Source: a virus
IMG/VR virus record: IMGVR_UViG_3300021247_000346
Coordinates: 1-31,163 of that record
Strand: one strand, 5' to 3'
DNA length: 31,163 nucleotides
Below the pieces are notes generated by a model that saw nothing but the letters and a program-made list of their open reading frames with translations, was not told where the DNA came from and made no database searches. Positions 18,436 to 30,677 of the stretch are shown piece after piece (position 1 is the stretch's first letter; every line of letters begins with the position of its first letter). The translations under genes and the position numbers were made by a program.

Positions 18436-18594
18436 ATGCTCAAGGGCAAGAAAACCTACCTCACCGCAGGCGTCGCTGTGCTCACCGCAGGCGTCGCCTA
18501 CGCGACGGGCGAAGCCACGCCGATCCAGGCGACCCAACTTGTAGTGACGGCCCTGATGGGCGCGTTCCTGCGCAACGGCGTCAGCGCCAAATAA
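18436..18594 (+). CDS. One-helix membrane protein, copy 1
   Basis: 52 aa beginning MLKGKKTYLTAGVAVLTAGV and ending ALMGAFLRNGVSAK. It has a basic start, one hydrophobic helix (about residues 9-24), then a short amphipathic segment. The GGAGA ribosome binding site lies 5-9 bases before the ATG. Type and place are suggestive of a small holin or spanin-like lysis helper, but the family function is unknown. It is the first of a tandem pair. Confidence 0.8.
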   Translation: MLKGKKTYLTAGVAVLTAGVAYATGEATPIQATQLVVTALMGAFLRNGVSAK

Positions 18595-18604
18595 GGAGAC
18601 GACC

Positions 18605-18763
18605 ATGCTCAAGGGCAAGAAGACATATATTACGGCGGCTGTCGCCATCATCACCGCCGTAGCGTCCTATCTGGTCGGCGACGCGACGCCGATACAGGCT
18701 GCGCAACTCGTGTTCACCGCGCTCATGGGTGCGTTCCTGCGCAACGGCGTCGCCAACGCCTAG
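18605..18763 (+). CDS. One-helix membrane protein, copy 2 (tandem paralogue)
   Basis: 52 aa, same length as copy 1: MLKGKKTYITAAVAIITAVA at the start and ALMGAFLRNGVANA at the end. The ribosome binding site and first codons are almost identical in DNA to copy 1 (AGGAGACGACCATGCTCAAG occurs before both). Differences cluster in the transmembrane helix and at wobble positions, so the duplication is old enough to have diverged and both copies keep an open frame. Confidence 0.8.
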   Translation: MLKGKKTYITAAVAIITAVASYLVGDATPIQAAQLVFTALMGAFLRNGVANA

Positions 18764-22502: not shown

Positions 22503-24479
22503 ATGAGTGTCCTCTGGAAGGATTACGAAACCCGCAGCCGTTGCGACTTGAAGACAAAGGGGGTCTACAACTACGCGCAGGACGCCAGCACGCAAGTGCT
22601 CTGCCTGTCCTACGCCTTTGACGACGAAGACGTTCAGACGTGGGTTCCTGGCCAACCCTTCCCTGAGCGCATCGCTAACCACACTGGCATGATCTACGCC
22701 CACAATGCGGCGTTTGAGCGGCTGATCGACTGGTACGTGCTGGCCCCTGATCTGGGCGTCCCTGAACCCAAGCTGGAGCAGTATTACTGCACGGCGACGC
22801 AGGCCCGCGCTAACTGCGCGCCCGGCAGTCTGGAAGATGTCGGGCGGTTCGCGTCGGTCAACATGCGCAAGGACCACCGGGGTTCGCAATTGATCCGGCT
22901 GCTGTCCGTGCCCCGGCCTGACGGGACGTTTAACGACGACCCGACCCTGAGGGCCGAAATGATCCGCTATTGCGAACAGGACGTCCGCGCCATGCGCGCC
23001 TTCAGTCAGGCCATGCGCCCGCTGTCGGACGACGAGCTGGCCGACTACCACGTCAACGAGCGCATCAACGACCGGGGCGTGCTGATCGACCGGCCCTTGG
23101 CTCTCGCTGCTATGCGCTACGCGGCGGACGAACTGGAAGACATTCAGGCCCTTGTCCGCGACGTGACCAAGGGCGAAGTCACCAGCGTCCGCGGCCCGCG
23201 CATGCGTCAGTGGGTGCAGGACCGCGTGGGGCCGGAAGCCGTCAAACTGATGACGACATATAAGGACGGCGCGCCGAAAATGTCTATCGACAAGACGGTG
23301 CGCGCCAACCTGCTGATCCTGGCGGAAGAGAACTCCGACGAAGTGCCCCCCGACGTGGCCGACGTCGTCCAGTGCGCCGACGACCTGTGGGCGTCGTCCG
23401 TCAAGAAGTTCGAGCGCATGGCGGCGCTGGCCGACGATGAAGACCAGCGGGTGCGCGGCGCGTTCGTTTTTGCGGGCGGCAGCGCCACCGGGCGCGCTTC
23501 ATCTTACGGGCTCCAGGTGCATAATTTCCCCCGCAAGACAGCCAAGGAACCCGACGCCGTGCGCCGCGCCATGGTCGCGGGCGACCGTATCGTACCGACC
23601 TACGGCAAGCGCACCACCGACGTGCTCAAGCACATGCTGCGCCCGGCCATCATCCCGCAAGGTAACAAGTCGCTGGTCATCGCCGACTGGGCCGCTATCG
23701 AAGCGCGCGTCAACCCGTGGCTGACCAACAGCGCCAGCGGCGACGGTAAGTTGGACCTGTTCCGCACCGGAGCCGACGTCTACAAGGCCAACGCCGTGGC
23801 GACCTTCGGCGGGCGTATCGACGACGTGACCGACGCGCAGCGTCAGGTCGGCAAAGTTCAGGAATTGGCTTGCGGCTTCGGCGGCGGCGTCGGGGCCTTC
23901 GCCGCCATGGGTCGCGCCTACGGCGTGCGCCTGCCCGAAGCCGACGCGCGGCGCATGGTCGACGCATGGCGGCGGGCGAACCCGTGGGCCGTGCGGTTCT
24001 GGTCAGACCTGGAGCGCGCCTACATGAGCGCGATGTACCACAAGGGACACGAGTTCACCGCAGGCCGCATCACCTACCTGTTCGATGGTCAACACCTTTG
24101 GTACGCCCTGCCCAGCGGGCGCATTCTGTGCTATCCCTACGCCCGACTGGAAGACGGCAACGTCACTTACGCCAAGGCGTCGTGGAAGCCCGCTGCCGAC
24201 GCGAAGGAATGGCCTCGGGCGCGGCTTTGGAAAGGGCTTGCCTGTGAGAACTGCACGCAAGCTACCGCAAATGACCTCTTGCGGAATGCGTTGCGATTGA
24301 CGGAAGATGATGGGCTTGAAACCGTCCTATCGGTTCATGATGAAATCGTTCTGGAAGCCGATGACCCTGCCGACGCCGCTGCGCAGTTAGCCAGGATCAT
24401 GACGACCCCGCCGACTTGGGCGGCGGGTCTGCCCCTGAACGTGGAAGTGTCTGTGAAGACGAGATATGGAAAGGACTAA
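22503..24479 (+). CDS. Family A DNA polymerase with 3'-5' exonuclease
   Basis: 658 aa. The exonuclease domain has motif I KDYETRS (D7, E9), motif II HNAAFER (N68, with E72 where Asp is usual) and motif III YCEQDV (Y156, D160). The polymerase domain has motif A VIADWAAIEARV (D395), a motif B-like segment RQVGKVQELACGFGGG, and motif C SVHDEIV (D613). All catalytic residues for synthesis are present, so it is probably the phage replicative polymerase. No 5'-3' nuclease domain is present. The next gene begins just after its stop. Confidence 0.94.
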   Translation: MSVLWKDYETRSRCDLKTKGVYNYAQDASTQVLCLSYAFDDEDVQTWVPGQPFPERIANHTGMIYAHNAAFERLIDWYVLAPDLGVPEPKLEQYYCTATQARANCAPGSLEDVGRFASVNMRKDHRGSQLIRLLSVPRPDGTFNDDPTLRAEMIRYCEQDVRAMRAFSQAMRPLSDDELADYHVNERINDRGVLIDRPLALAAMRYAADELEDIQALVRDVTKGEVTSVRGPRMRQWVQDRVGPEAVKLMTTYKDGAPKMSIDKTVRANLLILAEENSDEVPPDVADVVQCADDLWASSVKKFERMAALADDEDQRVRGAFVFAGGSATGRASSYGLQVHNFPRKTAKEPDAVRRAMVAGDRIVPTYGKRTTDVLKHMLRPAIIPQGNKSLVIADWAAIEARVNPWLTNSASGDGKLDLFRTGADVYKANAVATFGGRIDDVTDAQRQVGKVQELACGFGGGVGAFAAMGRAYGVRLPEADARRMVDAWRRANPWAVRFWSDLERAYMSAMYHKGHEFTAGRITYLFDGQHLWYALPSGRILCYPYARLEDGNVTYAKASWKPAADAKEWPRARLWKGLACENCTQATANDLLRNALRLTEDDGLETVLSVHDEIVLEADDPADAAAQLARIMTTPPTWAAGLPLNVEVSVKTRYGKD

Positions 24480-24480
24480 T

Positions 24481-26802
24481 ATGACGACGCAAGAGGACTT
24501 CATTAACTTCATCGCGGGGCTGGCGGTCGAAGGCGAGACCGCCCTTAAGGTCTTCCAGCGCCCGCTTATGCGGGGTGGCGAGCCGACCTTCCACGGCGAC
24601 GGGACGCCGAAGTACACATGGCCCGCCGTCCTGCCGGACGGCCCCACACGCGGCGGGTCCGTCTATATGAACACCGGGGCGTTCATCCTGTCGCGCTTCG
24701 TCGACGGCAAGATCAGCGCCAGCGCCGCCAATTGCGATTACGTCCTGTGCATGATGCTGGACGACATCGGGACCAAGTCCAAAGAGCCGCCGCTGACGCC
24801 GACCTGGATCATGGAAACCAGCGAAGGTTCCTTCCAGTGGGGCTATGCCTTCTCCGAACAGCCGTCCAAAGGCCACTTCACCGCTGCTATCCGCGCTATC
24901 GCAGCGGCAGGCTACACCGACCCCGGCGCGACCAACGCGGTGCGCAATTTCCGCGTCCCTGGCTCCATCAACCTCAAGCCGGGGCGAAACCGCTTCGAAG
25001 CCCGTCTGGTGCAGTTCAACTCCGAACGCGAGTACACCCTGGACGAAATCTGCGCGGCGCTGGACGTCACCCCCGGCGACCCGGACACCGACAAGCCCGA
25101 CCCCATCCGTTTGGCCGACACGGGCACAGATACGGTCCTGTCGTGGCTTAACGAGCAGGGCTTGGTCCTGTCGGCAACCAACGCTGAAGGCTGGCTTGGC
25201 GTCGTCTGCCCTAACAGCGCGCAGCACACCGACGGCATGATTGAAGCCCGCTACCGCCCCCTGGAGCGGGCGTTCTGCTGCTATCACGGCCATTGCGAGG
25301 ACTTCACATCGACGCAGTTCCTCCAGTGGGTCTGCGACAACGGCGGGCCCATGACCAAGCCCGGCATCCGTGACGACCTGCTGGCGTCGCGCATGGCCGA
25401 GACGGTCGGCAAGCTGACACTCACAGATATGTTCAGCGAAAGCGCCGCTGACGTCGTCGAGGAGGTAACGAGACGCGAGTTGGGGCGAGTTGAGAAGGCG
25501 GACTGGTACAAGCGGTTCGCCTACGTCGTCAGCGACGACTGCTTTTTCGACACGCTGACCCGCCGCCTCATTTCCCGCCAAGCGTTCAACGCGACGTTTC
25601 GCCACATCAAATGTTGCTCTATCCACGACGGCAAGCGGCGCGTCGAAGCCGCCATCTGCTATGACGAAAACCGACAGCATATGGGAGCGCAGGTCCTGAT
25701 GGGCGTCACCTACGCCGCAGGCGACAGCGTCCTGGTGGCGCAGGACGGCGACGTCTTCGGCAACCGCTGGCGAGACGCGAGGCCCGCGCCTGCGGCGCAG
25801 GGCGGCGACATCAGCCGGTGGCTTGACCATTGCAAACTGATGGTGCCCGACGACGAGGCGCTGGAGCACATTTTCGACGTCATGGCGTTCAAGCTTCAGA
25901 ACCCCCGCGTCAAGATCAACCATGCGATCCTGCACGGCGGCAAGGAAGGCTGCGGCAAGGACACCATGTGGGCTCCCTTCCTGTGGGCGGTCTGCGGACC
26001 AGCCATGCGCAACCGGGGCCTTGTCGACAACGACAGCGTCTCCAGCGCATGGGGCTACCACCTTGAAAGCGAAGTGCTGATCATCAACGAGCTGCGCGAG
26101 CCGAGCGCACTGGACCGTCGCGCGCTGGCTAACAAACTGAAGCCGATCATCGCCGCACCACCTGAAATGCTGACGATCAACCGTAAGAACATGCACCCTT
26201 ACGACGCGGCGAACCGGGCGTTTGTCCTGTCCTTCACCAATGATGAAGTACCTATCTCACTCTCCAGCCAGGACCGGCGCTGGTTCTGCGTATGGACGTC
26301 AGAGCCGCTCATGCGGACGGCCGACGCAGAGGCGATGTGGGACTGGTACAATGACGGCGGTTTCGCCAAGATCGCCCGATGGCTGCAAGACCGCGACGTG
26401 TCGAGGTTCAGTCCCACCGCAGCGCCCGCATGGACCGAATGGAAGTACAATCTGGTCGAGCACGGCATGAGCAGCGCCGAAAGCTATCTAACCGACATGA
26501 TCCGGCGTCAGGAAGGCGAGTTCGCCAAGGGTGTCCTTGGTGCGCCGTTCCACGCCGTCTGCGACCGTGTCGCCCTATCTGCGCCGCCCAGCGTCAAGGT
26601 GCACATCAACGCGCTCCTGCACGCCTTCAACGAGGCTGGGTGGGTCAACGTCGGGCGCATCGCCTCGCGGGAGTACCCCAACAAGAAGCAAATCTTTGCT
26701 GAGCCGAAGATGCTGGACAAGTTCTCCAAGAGCGACCTGCGGCGCATGGTCGAGCAGCCCCCAGGGGGCACGCTGGCGAACACGCTGAAACTGGTGAAGT
26801 GA
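24481..26802 (+). CDS. Primase-helicase fusion (RepB/AEP-type primase plus SF3-like helicase)
   Basis: 773 aa from the ATG at 24481, preceded by AAAGGA 5 bases upstream; an in-frame ATG at 24466 lacks this and overlaps the polymerase. The N-terminal third looks like an archaeo-eukaryotic-type (RepB-like) primase: MMLDDIGTK (D94, D95), GHFTAAI (H132) and the family motif FRVPGSINLK (157-166). A Cys/His cluster (VVCPNSAQHTDG ... CCYHGHCEDF) may bind zinc. The C-terminal half is a D5/DUF5906-like ATPase with Walker A GGKEGCGKD (486-494, K493) and the NELRE Walker B-like strand. It should make primers and unwind DNA for the adjacent polymerase. Confidence 0.88.
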   Translation: MTTQEDFINFIAGLAVEGETALKVFQRPLMRGGEPTFHGDGTPKYTWPAVLPDGPTRGGSVYMNTGAFILSRFVDGKISASAANCDYVLCMMLDDIGTKSKEPPLTPTWIMETSEGSFQWGYAFSEQPSKGHFTAAIRAIAAAGYTDPGATNAVRNFRVPGSINLKPGRNRFEARLVQFNSEREYTLDEICAALDVTPGDPDTDKPDPIRLADTGTDTVLSWLNEQGLVLSATNAEGWLGVVCPNSAQHTDGMIEARYRPLERAFCCYHGHCEDFTSTQFLQWVCDNGGPMTKPGIRDDLLASRMAETVGKLTLTDMFSESAADVVEEVTRRELGRVEKADWYKRFAYVVSDDCFFDTLTRRLISRQAFNATFRHIKCCSIHDGKRRVEAAICYDENRQHMGAQVLMGVTYAAGDSVLVAQDGDVFGNRWRDARPAPAAQGGDISRWLDHCKLMVPDDEALEHIFDVMAFKLQNPRVKINHAILHGGKEGCGKDTMWAPFLWAVCGPAMRNRGLVDNDSVSSAWGYHLESEVLIINELREPSALDRRALANKLKPIIAAPPEMLTINRKNMHPYDAANRAFVLSFTNDEVPISLSSQDRRWFCVWTSEPLMRTADAEAMWDWYNDGGFAKIARWLQDRDVSRFSPTAAPAWTEWKYNLVEHGMSSAESYLTDMIRRQEGEFAKGVLGAPFHAVCDRVALSAPPSVKVHINALLHAFNEAGWVNVGRIASREYPNKKQIFAEPKMLDKFSKSDLRRMVEQPPGGTLANTLKLVK

Positions 26803-26809
26803 ACAGCAA

Positions 26810-26845
26810 AGAGCCCTCCAGCCGGGGCTGTGGCTGGAGGGCTCT
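26810..26845. terminator. Strong convergent hairpin, 14-base-pair stem
   Basis: AGAGCCCTCCAGCC pairs perfectly with GGCTGGAGGGCTCT, loop GGGGCTGT. It starts seven bases after the primase-helicase stop and lies beyond the end of the leftward early operon. On the leftward strand it is followed by TTTGCTGTT, so it can serve as terminator for that operon; on the rightward strand only the stem is present. Confidence 0.75.
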
Positions 26846-26899: not shown

Positions 26900-26930
26900 A
26901 GCGTTGTCTGGCGTTATCAAGCGTTGTCTG
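26900..26930. repeat. Three phased 10-base direct repeats
   Basis: GCGTTGTCTG (26901-26910), GCGTTATCAA (26911-26920) and GCGTTGTCTG (26921-26930) stand head to tail with exactly one helical turn between units; the outer two are identical, including the preceding A. The third unit covers the last codons of the winged-helix gene, the first two lie in the non-coding gap before the hairpin. No inverted symmetry. Confidence 0.7.
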
Positions 26931-27297
26931 CAACATAATTCATGATGACGTCGCGTTCTTCGGTTGTGTAGCGCAGGCCAGAGCCGTGGATGCACTTGGG
27001 CTCCGGCAAGCCGTGGCGGGTCATCTTCGCCCGCAAGCGACAGATCACGACGTTAACCGAGTTCTGCGCGCTGGCGGGCTTCATGGACGGCCACAGACCG
27101 TCGTAGACAGTCTTGTAGTAGTCGGCCAGCCCCGGAGCCTTGGCCAGCACGACTTCCAGTAGCTGCGCCTCCTGGAGCGTGAGCCCCAAGGCGACCTTCA
27201 GCCGGGTGATCGACGGCGGAGCCGTGGCCGCGCCTTCGTAATAGGCCAACTTGGCTTCCAGTTCGGCAATGCGCGCCAGCATTTCGTCAGGCGTCAC
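26917..27297 (-). CDS. Coiled-coil plus OmpR/CtrA-like winged-helix protein, no receiver
   Basis: 126 aa, GTG start with AGGAG 7 bases upstream; the start overlaps the preceding stop (GTGA). Residues 3-22 form a short coiled coil (MLARIAELEAKLAYYE). Residues 37-113 match the response-regulator DNA-binding domain: LGLTLQEAQLLEVVLA, then the recognition helix region SAQNSVNVVICRLRAKM and the hairpin 'wing' IHGSGLRYTT. No phosphoacceptor domain is present. Likely a DNA-binding regulator, dimerising by the coil. The target may be phage or host promoters; inference only. Confidence 0.82.
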   Translation of the reverse strand: MTPDEMLARIAELEAKLAYYEGAATAPPSITRLKVALGLTLQEAQLLEVVLAKAPGLADYYKTVYDGLWPSMKPASAQNSVNVVICRLRAKMTRHGLPEPKCIHGSGLRYTTEERDVIMNYVADNA

Positions 27298-27452
27298 GCT
27301 GGCGCTCCTGTGTATCGTGGCGGGTTAGGCCGGGGGCGGCAGGCGACGCAGTTCTTCCAACCGTGCTGCACGGCGTCGCGCTCGGCAGTCGAGCCGCGCG
27401 GGAGCCATGCACCGCAGCGGCATTGTACGGCGCGGGGTGTGGGCTGGATCAT
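27294..27452 (-). CDS. Small Cys-rich putative zinc-binding protein, 52 aa
   Basis: Starts MIQPTPRAVQCRCGAWLPRG and ends with a Pro-rich tail. A CRCG pair and a later NCVAC pair form a likely zinc ribbon. Its ATG overlaps the upstream stop (ATGA) and its TGA overlaps the next GTG (GTGA), which is why it is accepted as a gene despite its size. Function unknown; small zinc ribbons in phage early operons often act on host proteins. Confidence 0.75.
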   Translation of the reverse strand: MIQPTPRAVQCRCGAWLPRGSTAERDAVQHGWKNCVACRPRPNPPRYTGAPA

Positions 27453-27694
27453 GCGCGCAGGGTCCCTGGATAGTAGCGACGCCCGTCGGGGCCAATGACG
27501 TATTCGAGGTTGTCCGGAAGCTTCGTCGTGACCAGCGCCTGCGGTATGGCCTCCGCCTTGGCAGCCTTCAGCTTGTCCCTGGCCCGGATGTAGTATGCGA
27601 AGGCAGCGTCGGCGGAAGCCTGTACGCGCTCGTAGGTTCGATAGGCGTCCTGCGCTTCGTCGTGCGCCATTTCGTATTGCTGTTGCTCGGTCAT
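27449..27694 (-). CDS. Small helical early protein
   Basis: 81 aa, mainly one long helix or coiled coil rich in Gln, Ala, Glu, Tyr and Arg (MTEQQQYEMAHDEAQDAYRT), then a short C-terminal part (EYVIGPDGRRYYPGTLRA). It overlaps upstream by TAATG and downstream by ATGA. No family recognised. Confidence 0.75.
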   Translation of the reverse strand: MTEQQQYEMAHDEAQDAYRTYERVQASADAAFAYYIRARDKLKAAKAEAIPQALVTTKLPDNLEYVIGPDGRRYYPGTLRA

Positions 27695-28248
27695 TAGTCT
27701 CTCCTGCTGTTGATAATCACGGATGCGGCTTCCGGTGACGGAAAACCTTTCTTGCGCAACGCGCGGTAGTCGGCCTCTTCGCTAGGCTTGACACCTAGCC
27801 GGGACAGGTACTGTGTGTGGCGCGCGTTTGCCGCCTTCGCTGCTAGCTCCGCGTTGCCTCGCATACGGTCAGCGCCTGCGGCTGATACGCGGGCAGTGAA
27901 CCCTGGTTGGGCGTGCATAGCCTTCATTCGAGCCTTGCCGTGGCAACTGGCGCAATGGGTGTTGCGTGGTGAGGCGCGGCAAGCGTCGGGCTGTAGACAA
28001 TTAGGTCCGGGCTGCTTGGTCATATGTGCAAGGTTCTCGGTATTAGCTGTTGAGTTACAAACGGTTGCGGCAGATACGTCGAGGCGGGCGGCTTGGCGGG
28101 CTCGCCTTTGTTGCCGGTTTCCTTCGTCCTCGTGCACAAGCATGTTGGCGCGCCGTTCCGCATACTCTTTGTCAGAGTGGTGGCAGCGCGGGGAGTTACC
28201 TTCAGGCCAACGGACGCCACACAGAGGGCAAGTGATCCAAACGTCCAT
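27694..28248 (-). CDS. Two-module Cys/His-rich early protein
   Basis: 184 aa from the ATG at 28248 (a GTG one codon earlier is possible). The first module has CPLCGVRWPEG and PRCHHSDKEY (candidate C-x-x-C...C-H-H zinc finger) followed by a basic helix RQQRRARQAARL-like. The second, from an in-frame ATG at 28023, has CLQPDACRASPRNTHCASCH then an Ala/Arg-rich helical part. Either two zinc modules in one chain or a gene with an internal second start. No catalytic motif seen. Confidence 0.7.
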   Translation of the reverse strand: MDVWITCPLCGVRWPEGNSPRCHHSDKEYAERRANMLVHEDEGNRQQRRARQAARLDVSAATVCNSTANTENLAHMTKQPGPNCLQPDACRASPRNTHCASCHGKARMKAMHAQPGFTARVSAAGADRMRGNAELAAKAANARHTQYLSRLGVKPSEEADYRALRKKGFPSPEAASVIINSRRD

Positions 28249-28595
28249 CACTCACCCCCTACTGTAGGAGCAGCGCCGAAGGCGGCTTGCCAGACGGCCT
28301 CGGTGATCTTGTCATGGTTGCCGATGTGGCGTCGCTGAAGGTCGCAGACGGCATCGCCAGACGCCGCCCACATCTGGCGAGAAGGTTCCCTCCCCACGAC
28401 CTTATACCCAGCCCCCTCAATGGCGCGGAGGGCTGCTAGGGCGAGGTTCATGGACTCCTTGTGCTTGAACTGATCAGCAGGCCAGCCCACGTCCTTTCCC
28501 GCGTACTTTTCCCGCATCTTCTTTTCGGCAAAGTCCATGACTTCCCAAGCGCCGGGGTCGATCACCCGCGCCACGATCTCTACCAGTTCACTCAT
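28248..28595 (-). CDS. Hypothetical early protein
   Basis: 115 aa, soluble, mixed helices. It starts MSELVEIVARVIDPGAWEVM and contains SMNLALAALRAIEGAGYKVV, a short pattern common in small phage early proteins of unknown role. Its start overlaps the upstream gene by 8 bases and its stop shares a base with the next start (TGATG). Confidence 0.75.
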   Translation of the reverse strand: MSELVEIVARVIDPGAWEVMDFAEKKMREKYAGKDVGWPADQFKHKESMNLALAALRAIEGAGYKVVGREPSRQMWAASGDAVCDLQRRHIGNHDKITEAVWQAAFGAAPTVGGE

Positions 28596-28956
28596 GGATA
28601 GAGCCTCCGGTACTCACGAGCCTTTTGAGTTCAGCGCGGGCCGCGAGCGGATTGACGGAAAACGCAGCCGGGCTCTCCTGTAGGTTCTGAAAGTCCGGCA
28701 TGACCGCGCACCACATCCGTTGACCGCGCGCGGAAAAGCCATCGTGGAAAATACGGATCTCATCCGCTTTCGGGCCGCCGTGATTTGGACAGCATGGCCC
28801 AACGCAGAACGGCGCATCTGTTTGATGCCAGTACCGACTCCCTTGGTCATGCCGCAGGACTTCAATCGGCAACTGGTTTCCGTAAGCGGGCGCGTCGCAA
28901 AACCCGGCAGGTAATCCCATCATCCACATGGGGACGCGGCATTTCAGTTCACTCAT
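28588..28956 (-). CDS. Hypothetical Cys-containing early protein
   Basis: 122 aa. It begins MSELKCRVPMWMMGLPAGFC and holds FCVGPCCPNHGGPKADEIRI followed by FHDGF. Six cysteines (C6, C20, C52, C56, C57 and C84) with nearby His residues suggest metal binding. The first half is unlike its neighbours. Overlaps of 8 bases on each side keep it in the operon. Function unknown. Confidence 0.75.
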   Translation of the reverse strand: MSELKCRVPMWMMGLPAGFCDAPAYGNQLPIEVLRHDQGSRYWHQTDAPFCVGPCCPNHGGPKADEIRIFHDGFSARGQRMWCAVMPDFQNLQESPAAFSVNPLAARAELKRLVSTGGSIHE

Positions 28957-29191
28957 GGGGGGCTCCTTTGAGGGCGGCGCGGGCTATCTCGTTGACTTGA
29001 GACACAAGGCTGTCAGTCCACTTCTCGGTCAGATCAGCAATGCGGCGCATTTCCAGCTTCAGCGCCTCCACCTCAGCCTGGAGAGCGTCTTCTCGGGCGT
29101 AAATGGTGGCTAACGCTTCCGCAGTCTTGCTTCCGGGGGGCCAGCCTCCAAACACAACCTTAATGACTTCTTTGGCTTCTTCTGGAGTCAT
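28949..29191 (-). CDS. Small coiled-coil early protein
   Basis: 80 aa. It starts MTPEEAKEVIKVVFGGWPPG and contains a heptad-like helix EDALQAEVEALKLEMRRIAD. It overlaps the upstream gene by 4 bases (ATGA). No enzymatic motif; oligomer formation through the coil is likely. Confidence 0.75.
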   Translation of the reverse strand: MTPEEAKEVIKVVFGGWPPGSKTAEALATIYAREDALQAEVEALKLEMRRIADLTEKWTDSLVSQVNEIARAALKGAPHE

Positions 29192-29412
29192 CGTCCTGCC
29201 TCCTCAACAGCGAGGGAGAGGGCGTCGTGGGCCTGTGAAAACTCCTGAATCGAACCATTCGGATGATTGGCCGCGATCATGCCCTCCCCCGCCAGTCTCA
29301 GCGCCTCATGTGACTTGAGGAGGGCGACAAGATCGGCATTCGGCACCGATACAAACCCGTCGCTTTCGTCCACGTAAACCCTAAGCCTCTCCACAGCCTC
29401 ACTGACCTTCAT
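29188..29412 (-). CDS. Small hypothetical early protein
   Basis: 74 aa, helical, beginning MKVSEAVERLRVYVDESDGF. A good GGAGG ribosome binding site precedes the ATG. It overlaps the upstream gene by 14 bases and the downstream by 4. Function unknown. Confidence 0.72.
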   Translation of the reverse strand: MKVSEAVERLRVYVDESDGFVSVPNADLVALLKSHEALRLAGEGMIAANHPNGSIQEFSQAHDALSLAVEEAGR

Positions 29413-29779
29413 GGTCGCCTCCTATGGCTTGGTGGTAGGTGGCGCGCTCTTTTTCGGCTTGCCCGGCGTCTTCCAGATATTCGACCAGCGGCTTCGCCAG
29501 CTTCACCGCCGCATCGAAACCGGCGAGGAAGGCTTTGATGTCCATGCCATTGTCCCATCCGCCCGTATCTATGTCGTAGGCAGTCGGTCTTTCGTCCTTC
29601 AGCCACTCCCTCGCCGCCAACACCCTTGGGTTTATGGGGTCGGGTGGGGTCCAGTTGGAGACGACCAATTCGCGGTAGACGTTGAAAGCATCGCGGGGGT
29701 TTATTGCGCCATCGATCGGGTGGCGGCTGCGGCGCCAAGCCTCTTCAGCCCGCGCCTTGTCTAGCTGTTCCGGGGTCAT
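29399..29779 (-). CDS. Early protein with 'AREW...LAG' module
   Basis: 126 aa. The N-terminus is helical and charged (MTPEQLDKARAEEAWRRSRH). The middle NPRVLAAREWLKDERPT and GGWDNGMDIKAFLAGFDAA form a module repeated in the adjacent upstream gene. A C-terminal helix EYLEDAGQAEKERATYHQ follows. The start overlaps the upstream stop (ATGA). Function unknown. Confidence 0.76.
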   Translation of the reverse strand: MTPEQLDKARAEEAWRRSRHPIDGAINPRDAFNVYRELVVSNWTPPDPINPRVLAAREWLKDERPTAYDIDTGGWDNGMDIKAFLAGFDAAVKLAKPLVEYLEDAGQAEKERATYHQAIGGDHEGQ

Positions 29780-30109
29780 GACCGCCCCCCAGCCTTGGAG
29801 GCTTTGAGACCGGCGAGGTACGCTCTCAATTCATCGTGGTAATCATAGCCCCCCGCAGCGGGGTCGCAAAGGCATGAGGGATACCGCCCCTTGAACCACT
29901 CCCTAGCCAGCACCAGGTCTGGGTCTACTGGAGGCGGAATGACTTCTACACGGGCGGTAGGGGCGGTGAGTTCGGAGACATAGAAACTCGTGGTCGGCCC
30001 TAGCTCGCCGTCCAATTTGAAAAAGAAACAACCCCTGATGCTCTCGACGAAACCCCCCCTCAACAGTGATCCTAACCCGGTCTCTGGGCTTCATGGTGGG
30101 GAAAGTCAT
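29776..30109 (-). pseudogene. Early gene split by an apparent +1 frameshift
   Basis: Reading starts at the ATG 30109, which overlaps the preceding stop (ATGA): MTFPTMKPRDRVRITVEGG. A run of seven G on the minus strand (30053-30059) then throws the frame. With six G the chain would continue GFVESIRGCFFFKLDGELGP and run to 29776 for about 111 aa, joining two sensible halves. The downstream half alone could start only at a TTG (30063). It carries the same module as the next gene (VLAREWFKGRYPS ... YHDELRAYLAGLKA). A sequencing slip, a real mutation, or programmed +1 frameshifting are all possible. Confidence 0.7.
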
Positions 30110-30489
30110 TCCGCTGTTTCCTTTTCAAGATATGGCGCAAGCAGTTTCAAGCCCGTGGCTGTGAGGTAATAACCCGCGTGCTTGCGGGTGGCGATGACGT
30201 CAGCCGGGGCCAGCTTGGCGCGGATGCGCGCGATGTGGACTGCGGCGGTATTGTGGACGGCGTCGGTCGCCAGCTGGTTGGTCAGCATCGATGCGGAGAC
30301 GATACCGCCCCGCGCGTCGTAAAGGGTGCGCAAAATAGCCTCCTGGTGGGGCGTGAAGCCCCAAGCGGCCCAGCCGGGGGCCGTGACAGGGCGCGGCGTC
30401 GGACGGGCGTCAGCGGCCTCCTTACGCATGCGCGCGATGATGCGCTTAAGGCGGTCGATTTCGGCCTGGAGGTCGGTTTCGGTGGTCAC
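30106..30489 (-). CDS. Second coiled-coil plus winged-helix protein, no receiver
   Basis: 127 aa from a GTG at 30489 that overlaps the upstream stop (GTGA) and follows GGGGGA; an in-frame ATG at 30501 is the alternative. The N-terminal coil TDLQAEIDRLKRIIARMRKE precedes a response-regulator-type DNA-binding domain (WGFTPHQEAILRTLYDARGG, recognition region VHNTAAVHIARIRAKL, wing TRKHAGYYLTATG). Same architecture as the 126-aa protein at the other end of the operon, but with little sequence identity. Probably a phage transcription regulator. Confidence 0.8.
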   Translation of the reverse strand: MTTETDLQAEIDRLKRIIARMRKEAADARPTPRPVTAPGWAAWGFTPHQEAILRTLYDARGGIVSASMLTNQLATDAVHNTAAVHIARIRAKLAPADVIATRKHAGYYLTATGLKLLAPYLEKETAE

Positions 30490-30677
30490 TTGATCCCCCA
30501 TATCTGGCAGACGCCCAAGGCTATGGCGAGAACGGGTGCGCAGACCACCGGGGCCAGCGCAAAAAGCAGCCAAGACAGATGTATGCTCTTACCGGCGGCG
30601 AGCGCGCCAATAGGGACTGACAGGCACACGATAACCAACAGATCTGTCATCAGCAGTTTAGCCATGAGCACAGCCAT
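30486..30677 (-). CDS. Small membrane protein, two helices
   Basis: 63 aa from the ATG at 30677 (its A is shared with the preceding stop, TGATG). Two hydrophobic segments (MAVLMAKLLMTDLLVIVCLS and WLLFALAPVVCAPVLAIALG) with a short KSIHLS loop. Likely sits in the inner membrane. An early-operon membrane protein could be a superinfection-exclusion or envelope-modifying factor; this is inference. Confidence 0.7.
   Translation of the reverse strand: MAVLMAKLLMTDLLVIVCLSVPIGALAAGKSIHLSWLLFALAPVVCAPVLAIALGVCQIWGIK

Follow-up and report, generated by a model that had tools for sequence, protein, structure and literature searches.

The window analysed here is the whole of a 31,163-base IMG/VR fragment, IMGVR_UViG_3300021247_000346, from a P22-like podovirus, in which two small leftward genes, P0001 and P0002, encode proteins combining a short N-terminal helix with a winged helix of the OmpR/PhoB type. 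The reading that we favour, with somewhat better than even confidence, is that they are constitutively homodimeric, phosphorylation-independent phage transcription regulators occupying a position in which different regulators are interchangeable. The two genes and their parts are as follows.

26917–27297, minus strand: P0001, coiled-coil and OmpR/PhoB-type winged-helix protein, 126 aa (open reading frame, PF00486, AlphaFold2 (AF2) model, codon G+C)
27232–27291, minus strand: P0001 N-terminal helix, residues 3–22, weak leucine-zipper pattern (AF2, predicted local distance difference test (pLDDT) score about 83/72)
26986–27189, minus strand: P0001 winged-helix domain (PF00486 stretch)
26923–26964, minus strand: P0001 C-terminal helix after the wing, residues 112–125 (AF2)
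30106–30489, minus strand: P0002, coiled-coil and OmpR/PhoB-type winged-helix protein, 127 aa (open reading frame, PF00486, AF2, codon G+C)
30409–30489, minus strand: P0002 N-terminal leucine-zipper-like helix (AF2 helix 5–31 of the 131-aa form)
30163–30357, minus strand: P0002 winged-helix domain (PF00486 stretch)
30112–30159, minus strand: P0002 C-terminal helix after the wing, H115–130 (AF2)

Both are real genes, since their codon-position G+C is coding-like (GC3, at third positions, 0.80 for P0001 and 0.77 for P0002; GC2, at second positions, 0.44 and 0.52), Shine-Dalgarno-like sequences precede their GTG starts (AGGAG upstream of P0001; GGGGG upstream of the P0002 start at 30489, with an in-frame ATG at 30501) and each start is overlapped by the stop of the preceding open reading frame (GTGA).

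A winged helix without a receiver

Both proteins match the Trans_reg_C profile PF00486, P0002 with 33.5 bits (E = 4.6e-8), above the curated Pfam cut-off of 26.2 bits, and P0001 below it. A joint profile of P0001, P0002 and four relatives, searched against PDB sequences, retrieves chiefly OmpR/PhoB DNA-binding domains (AdeR, PhoB, BasR/PmrA, SaeR, CarR; best E = 0.0015). In the AF2 models, P0001 consists of a helix, an α1-α2-α3-β-β core and a C-terminal helix (pLDDT 66), and P0002 of a helix, three helices with a two-strand wing and a C-terminal helix (pLDDT 64). The extra C-terminal helix is common to the two proteins, and the sequences of their relatives extend likewise.

The claim of the sequence-only reading that a phosphoacceptor domain is absent holds: neither protein has a receiver match, and the 36–48 residues that precede the winged helix are too short for one. 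The N-terminal receiver with a phosphoacceptor aspartate, by which the OmpR family is recognised, is therefore missing from both, as is a receiver of the CtrA type. The further description as CtrA-like was not borne out, no family search favouring CtrA and CtrA sites standing at chance in the window.

P0001, P0002 and the homologues from four related loci (L005, L007, L008 and L010) all keep the recognition-helix motif V-x-[VI]-x-[KR]-[LI]-R and the glycine of the wing; the homologue in the podovirus MW202640 has histidine at the Lys/Arg position of the motif. This conservation bears on the idea that the winged helix is an interaction module, binding for instance RNA polymerase or the replisome, rather than a DNA-binding domain. 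Winged helices do sometimes bind protein, and the domain carries only a small net positive charge (+3 in each protein); the kept recognition helix and wing glycine speak against the idea, as do the DNA-binding domains found as alternative occupants of the cluster (see below), and we regard it as very unlikely.

Relatives of the same build

The primase relatives examined comprise 80 loci, with about 260 further primase relatives outside this sample. Five of the 80 (L005, L007, L008, L010 and L011) encode one zipper and winged-helix protein each, and so does MW202640, a different, more distant podovirus, where the gene lies beside recT and a small helix-turn-helix gene. A profile built from these relatives recovers P0002 (E = 1.6e-4). 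The PF00486 profile itself found only one such protein in 50 relatives, although five loci carry it, and the relatives' version is therefore near the detection limit of that profile.

Close homologues of the window proteins were absent from phages (tblastn) and from viral_contigs; the single match there, in L003, was discarded as spurious, being 30 residues inside an unrelated 206-aa protein. For P0002 none was present in genome_contigs, and a plasmid search returned one Streptomyces match, to the domain of P0002 only (E = 3e-4), and none to P0001. When 295 genomes of the class of the one metagenome-assembled genome (MAG) that holds a primase relative were searched with the A1 profile, only three matches appeared, and these have the size of full response regulators, as their frames span 229–240 aa.

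Predicted pairing of the N-terminal helices

Dimerisation probably proceeds through the N-terminal helix, judging from its heptad pattern. Hydrophobic residues occupy the a and d positions of P0002 more often than expected (p = 0.0065), and the pattern is good in most relatives (p = 0.05, 0.0105 and <0.0005). With registers picked from the hydrophobic core alone, the g-e' pairs are all attractive or neutral in the P0001 homodimer (R9-E14' and K16-E21', score +4) and in the P0002 homodimer (E10-K15' and E24-R29', score +4), and repulsive in the heterodimer (score -2 to -3 in three registers). All three pairing properties recur in 0.14% (0.0014) of shuffles of the e and g residues and in 0.008% (0.00008) of shuffles of all non-core residues. 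This post hoc test covers two proteins only, one of which, P0001, has a weak zipper, and it amounts to a prediction, namely that each protein pairs with itself and repels the other.

The sequence-only reading had allowed for heterodimers as well as homodimers, and the location of both genes in one leftward cluster, together with N-terminal helices whose net charges over the heptad stretch have opposite signs, could be taken to mean that P0001 and P0002 form one heterodimer. The computed charges run the other way, since the g-e' pairs repel in the heterodimer and attract in both homodimers. Moreover, each relative found encodes one such protein, which must therefore work without a partner of its kind. 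A heterodimer appears highly improbable.

A probable interchangeable regulator position

Small genes on the right side of the window form a leftward cluster, which converges on the primase gene. The elements that anchor it are listed below.

24466–26802, plus strand: replication gene of the DUF5906/RepB-primase type, convergent to the cluster, used as phylogenetic anchor
26810–26845, minus strand: intrinsic terminator that ends the leftward cluster, located between the P0001 and primase genes (14-pair stem, 10 G-C)

P0001 is the final gene of the cluster, directly before this strong terminator, and P0002 is located 3.3 kb beyond the end of the primase gene. Of the suggestion that the two genes lie near the two ends of the cluster, the part concerning P0001 stands; at the other side the cluster continues past P0002 and off the contig. 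The layout suggests that the cluster may be expressed early.

In the five primase relatives, the winged-helix gene adjoins a DUF6378 gene, on whose other side lies a protein with a proline-rich linker and DnaA domain IV (DnaA-IV); the L011 stretch ends before that point. In 12 loci of a sister clade (L006, L014, L015, L017–L020 and L022–L026), a 110-aa bare DnaA-IV stands beside DUF6378. The gene order is thus DnaA-IV, DUF6378 and then either the winged helix or the 110-aa DnaA-IV; neighbouring genes overlap in L008 and L014, and in the five relatives the winged helix is exchanged with DnaA-IV neighbour for neighbour.

Occupants were counted in the 51 relatives whose sequence continues for at least 3.5 kb downstream, and 42 of them have a compact DNA-binding protein in the convergent cluster: DnaA-IV in 29 (three also with a winged helix), a compact MarR-like protein in 12 and a sigma-70-region-4 protein in one. 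The last is a 221-aa protein (L013:15256–15921, minus strand) with a C-terminal sigma-70 region 4 (E = 9.7e-14), and the sister phages of L013 carry DnaA-IV pairs. A pair made of DUF6378 and a single DnaA-IV occurs in other clades (16/51 loci), and nine of the 51 have no recognised DNA-binding protein in the cluster. Occupant types follow the clades of the primase tree (7 changes, against a shuffled mean of 37), with the winged-helix type on two separate parts of the tree, in the window and in the L005 clade. The window has two winged helices and neither DUF6378 nor DnaA-IV, so the direct swap is shown in the relatives only; the window pair would do the same job as the relatives' proteins.

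The frequency of DnaA-IV raises the alternative that the position serves replication rather than transcription, as a place for origin-binding domains (DnaA-IV, CtrA/OmpR-type winged helix) that block or steer initiation by occupying sites at phage or host origins. Its commonest occupant is indeed DnaA-IV without the ATPase (29 of 51), and the cluster adjoins replication genes. Against this, the loci that carry DnaA-IV show no enrichment of DnaA boxes (0–1 per locus), and the other occupants, MarR and sigma region 4, are transcription domains; we consider a replication role unlikely. In MW202483, six DnaA boxes are found where 2.2 are expected, and shuffled sequences reach seven.

Stand-alone DnaA domain IV proteins (PF08299, without ATPase) are common in these phages, being found at L006:15467–15799, L006:16377–16943, L005:5778–6413, L004:31423–31719 and about 40 other loci, either as the bare domain or preceded by a conserved HYKxVRARL motif and a proline-rich linker, and in some genomes two of them flank the DUF6378 gene.

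DNA targets and host

Phages are known to exploit host response regulators, CtrA and Spo0A of the host acting on phage promoters (PMC9437464), and the window proteins have a domain of this type without the phospho-switch. They could then be mimics aimed at the host, which would override a response regulator such as CtrA or PhoB by binding at its sites. The CtrA motif TTAA-N7-TTAA occurs once in the window (1.32 expected), with no enrichment, and neither protein has CtrA-specific similarity; furthermore, because their recognition helices differ, probably no more than one of the pair mimics any given host site. The proposed mimicry of CtrA or PhoB promoters therefore found no backing, and a host-directed role of this kind seems rather improbable. 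The MAG holding a primase relative gives no support for an alphaproteobacterial host, since GcrA was found in 0/13 genomes of its class; the phage contig in that MAG may be mis-binned.

Proposed mechanism

PhoB/OmpR proteins are driven to dimerise, and hence to bind tandem sites, when their receiver is phosphorylated. According to the transcription-regulator reading, each window protein would retain only the helix core and wing of the OmpR/PhoB effector domain, with a short N-terminal leucine-zipper helix in place of the phosphorylation-dimerised receiver. The zipper would give a constitutive homodimer and make a kinase unnecessary; the proteins would be expressed along with the cluster of small genes that converges on the replication module, and their binding at phage promoters, possibly also at host promoters, would time gene expression. 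In other clades the same regulator position would be taken by a stand-alone DnaA-IV, a compact MarR or a sigma-70-region-4 protein. The parts that we infer here are dimerisation, zipper orthogonality, DNA targets and timing, and a role of the pair in setting early or late timing is possible. The central claim of the sequence-only reading, a pair of phospho-independent regulators, is supported by the winged helices without receiver and by the relatives of the same build, in which the recognition-helix pattern was seen to be kept.

Several results weigh against this interpretation. P0001 reaches 22.5 bits against PF00486 (E = 1.2e-4), significant yet under the cut-off, its heptad pattern is weak (p = 0.11) and the profile of the relatives does not recover it (E = 0.59). 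The three-helix and two-strand-wing topology is predicted in both AF2 models at low confidence (pLDDT 64–66), and a Foldseek comparison of the models with the PDB gave no match below E = 0.6. The window genes share with those of the relatives the convergent cluster only, at a different syntenic position. Finally, the promoters of the leftward cluster and of the late genes fall outside the contig, and neither binding sites nor promoters nor transcripts were observed.

A bolder version, which we put forward only tentatively, is that the position has been serially refilled with DNA-binding domains from unrelated cellular regulators and that in the window it was filled twice with OmpR-type domains, whose mutually insulated zippers would make them two independent phospho-free switches built on one fold.

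Relation to known systems

With the OmpR/PhoB effector domain (PF00486; PhoB, AdeR, BasR) the window proteins share the consensus residues and a predicted core of α1, α2, recognition helix and wing. They differ in lacking the receiver and a predicted N-terminal β platform, and their winged helix is preceded by a zipper helix and followed by an additional helix, within about 126 aa in total. ToxR, CadC and HilA are receiver-less OmpR-type regulators, with Trans_reg_C and no phosphoacceptor, in which the domain lies at the N terminus and is followed by a membrane or helical-repeat part; in P0001 and P0002, in contrast, it is C-terminal behind a zipper, and no membrane segment was seen. CtrA belongs to the same domain superfamily, and a host regulator of this kind could face competition from a version carried by a phage. 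In the CtrA-using phages, host CtrA binds phage promoters (PMC9437464), whereas the receiver-less proteins described here come from the phage itself and the window has no cluster of CtrA sites. The stand-alone DnaA-IV of the sister phages (PF08299) is likewise a DNA-binding domain without its regulatory part, at a position beside DUF6378 that it has in common with the relatives' winged helix; its fold is unrelated, and it has a proline-rich linker or is a bare domain instead of carrying a zipper.

Phage-borne regulators of many folds are common. A literature search, largely without subscription papers, gave no report of a zipper joined to an OmpR-type winged helix in a phage protein, and none of DnaA-IV as a phage protein on its own; the domain is already known, and the zipper and winged-helix build and its swap with DnaA-IV look new. 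If the interpretation is correct, phages make switchable host regulators constitutive by retaining the DNA-binding domain alone, unrelated domains swapped into one position are natural comparisons of what that position does, and P0001 and P0002 offer two orthogonal zippers that can be tested. With versions of the DnaA-IV, OmpR-type, MarR and sigma-region-4 kinds, close relatives would permit complementation tests across non-homologous proteins.

Other features of the window

The phage is a freshwater P22-like podovirus. The window encodes portal, scaffold and P22-type coat proteins, together with a family A DNA polymerase and the DUF5906/RepB-type primase; its nearest named relative is MW202483, a freshwater-spring record (primase 51%, coat 73%), and the lake phage DSL-LC05 is a further relative by its coat protein. 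Among the related loci, L081:14308–14955 (minus strand) encodes a beta-clamp-like protein, assigned by sequence to the one DNA_pol3_beta_2 match in the Pfam scan of its set.

Close to P0002, at 30040–30109 (minus strand), a run of seven G (minus strand) lies between two overlapping frames, which together read like a single protein; a frameshift, a sequencing error and a slippage site are candidate explanations. The adjacent genes at 29399–29779 and 29776–30063 (minus strand) have in common the motif LAREW[LF]K...G..[YW]D...[IL][KR]A[FY]LAG and are apparently paralogues. After the structural genes, at 18438–18763 (plus strand), two small hydrophobic proteins of about 50 aa (MLKGKKTYLTAGVAVL...) are encoded in tandem by copies 75% identical in DNA over 158 nt, possibly a duplicated lysis or membrane gene.

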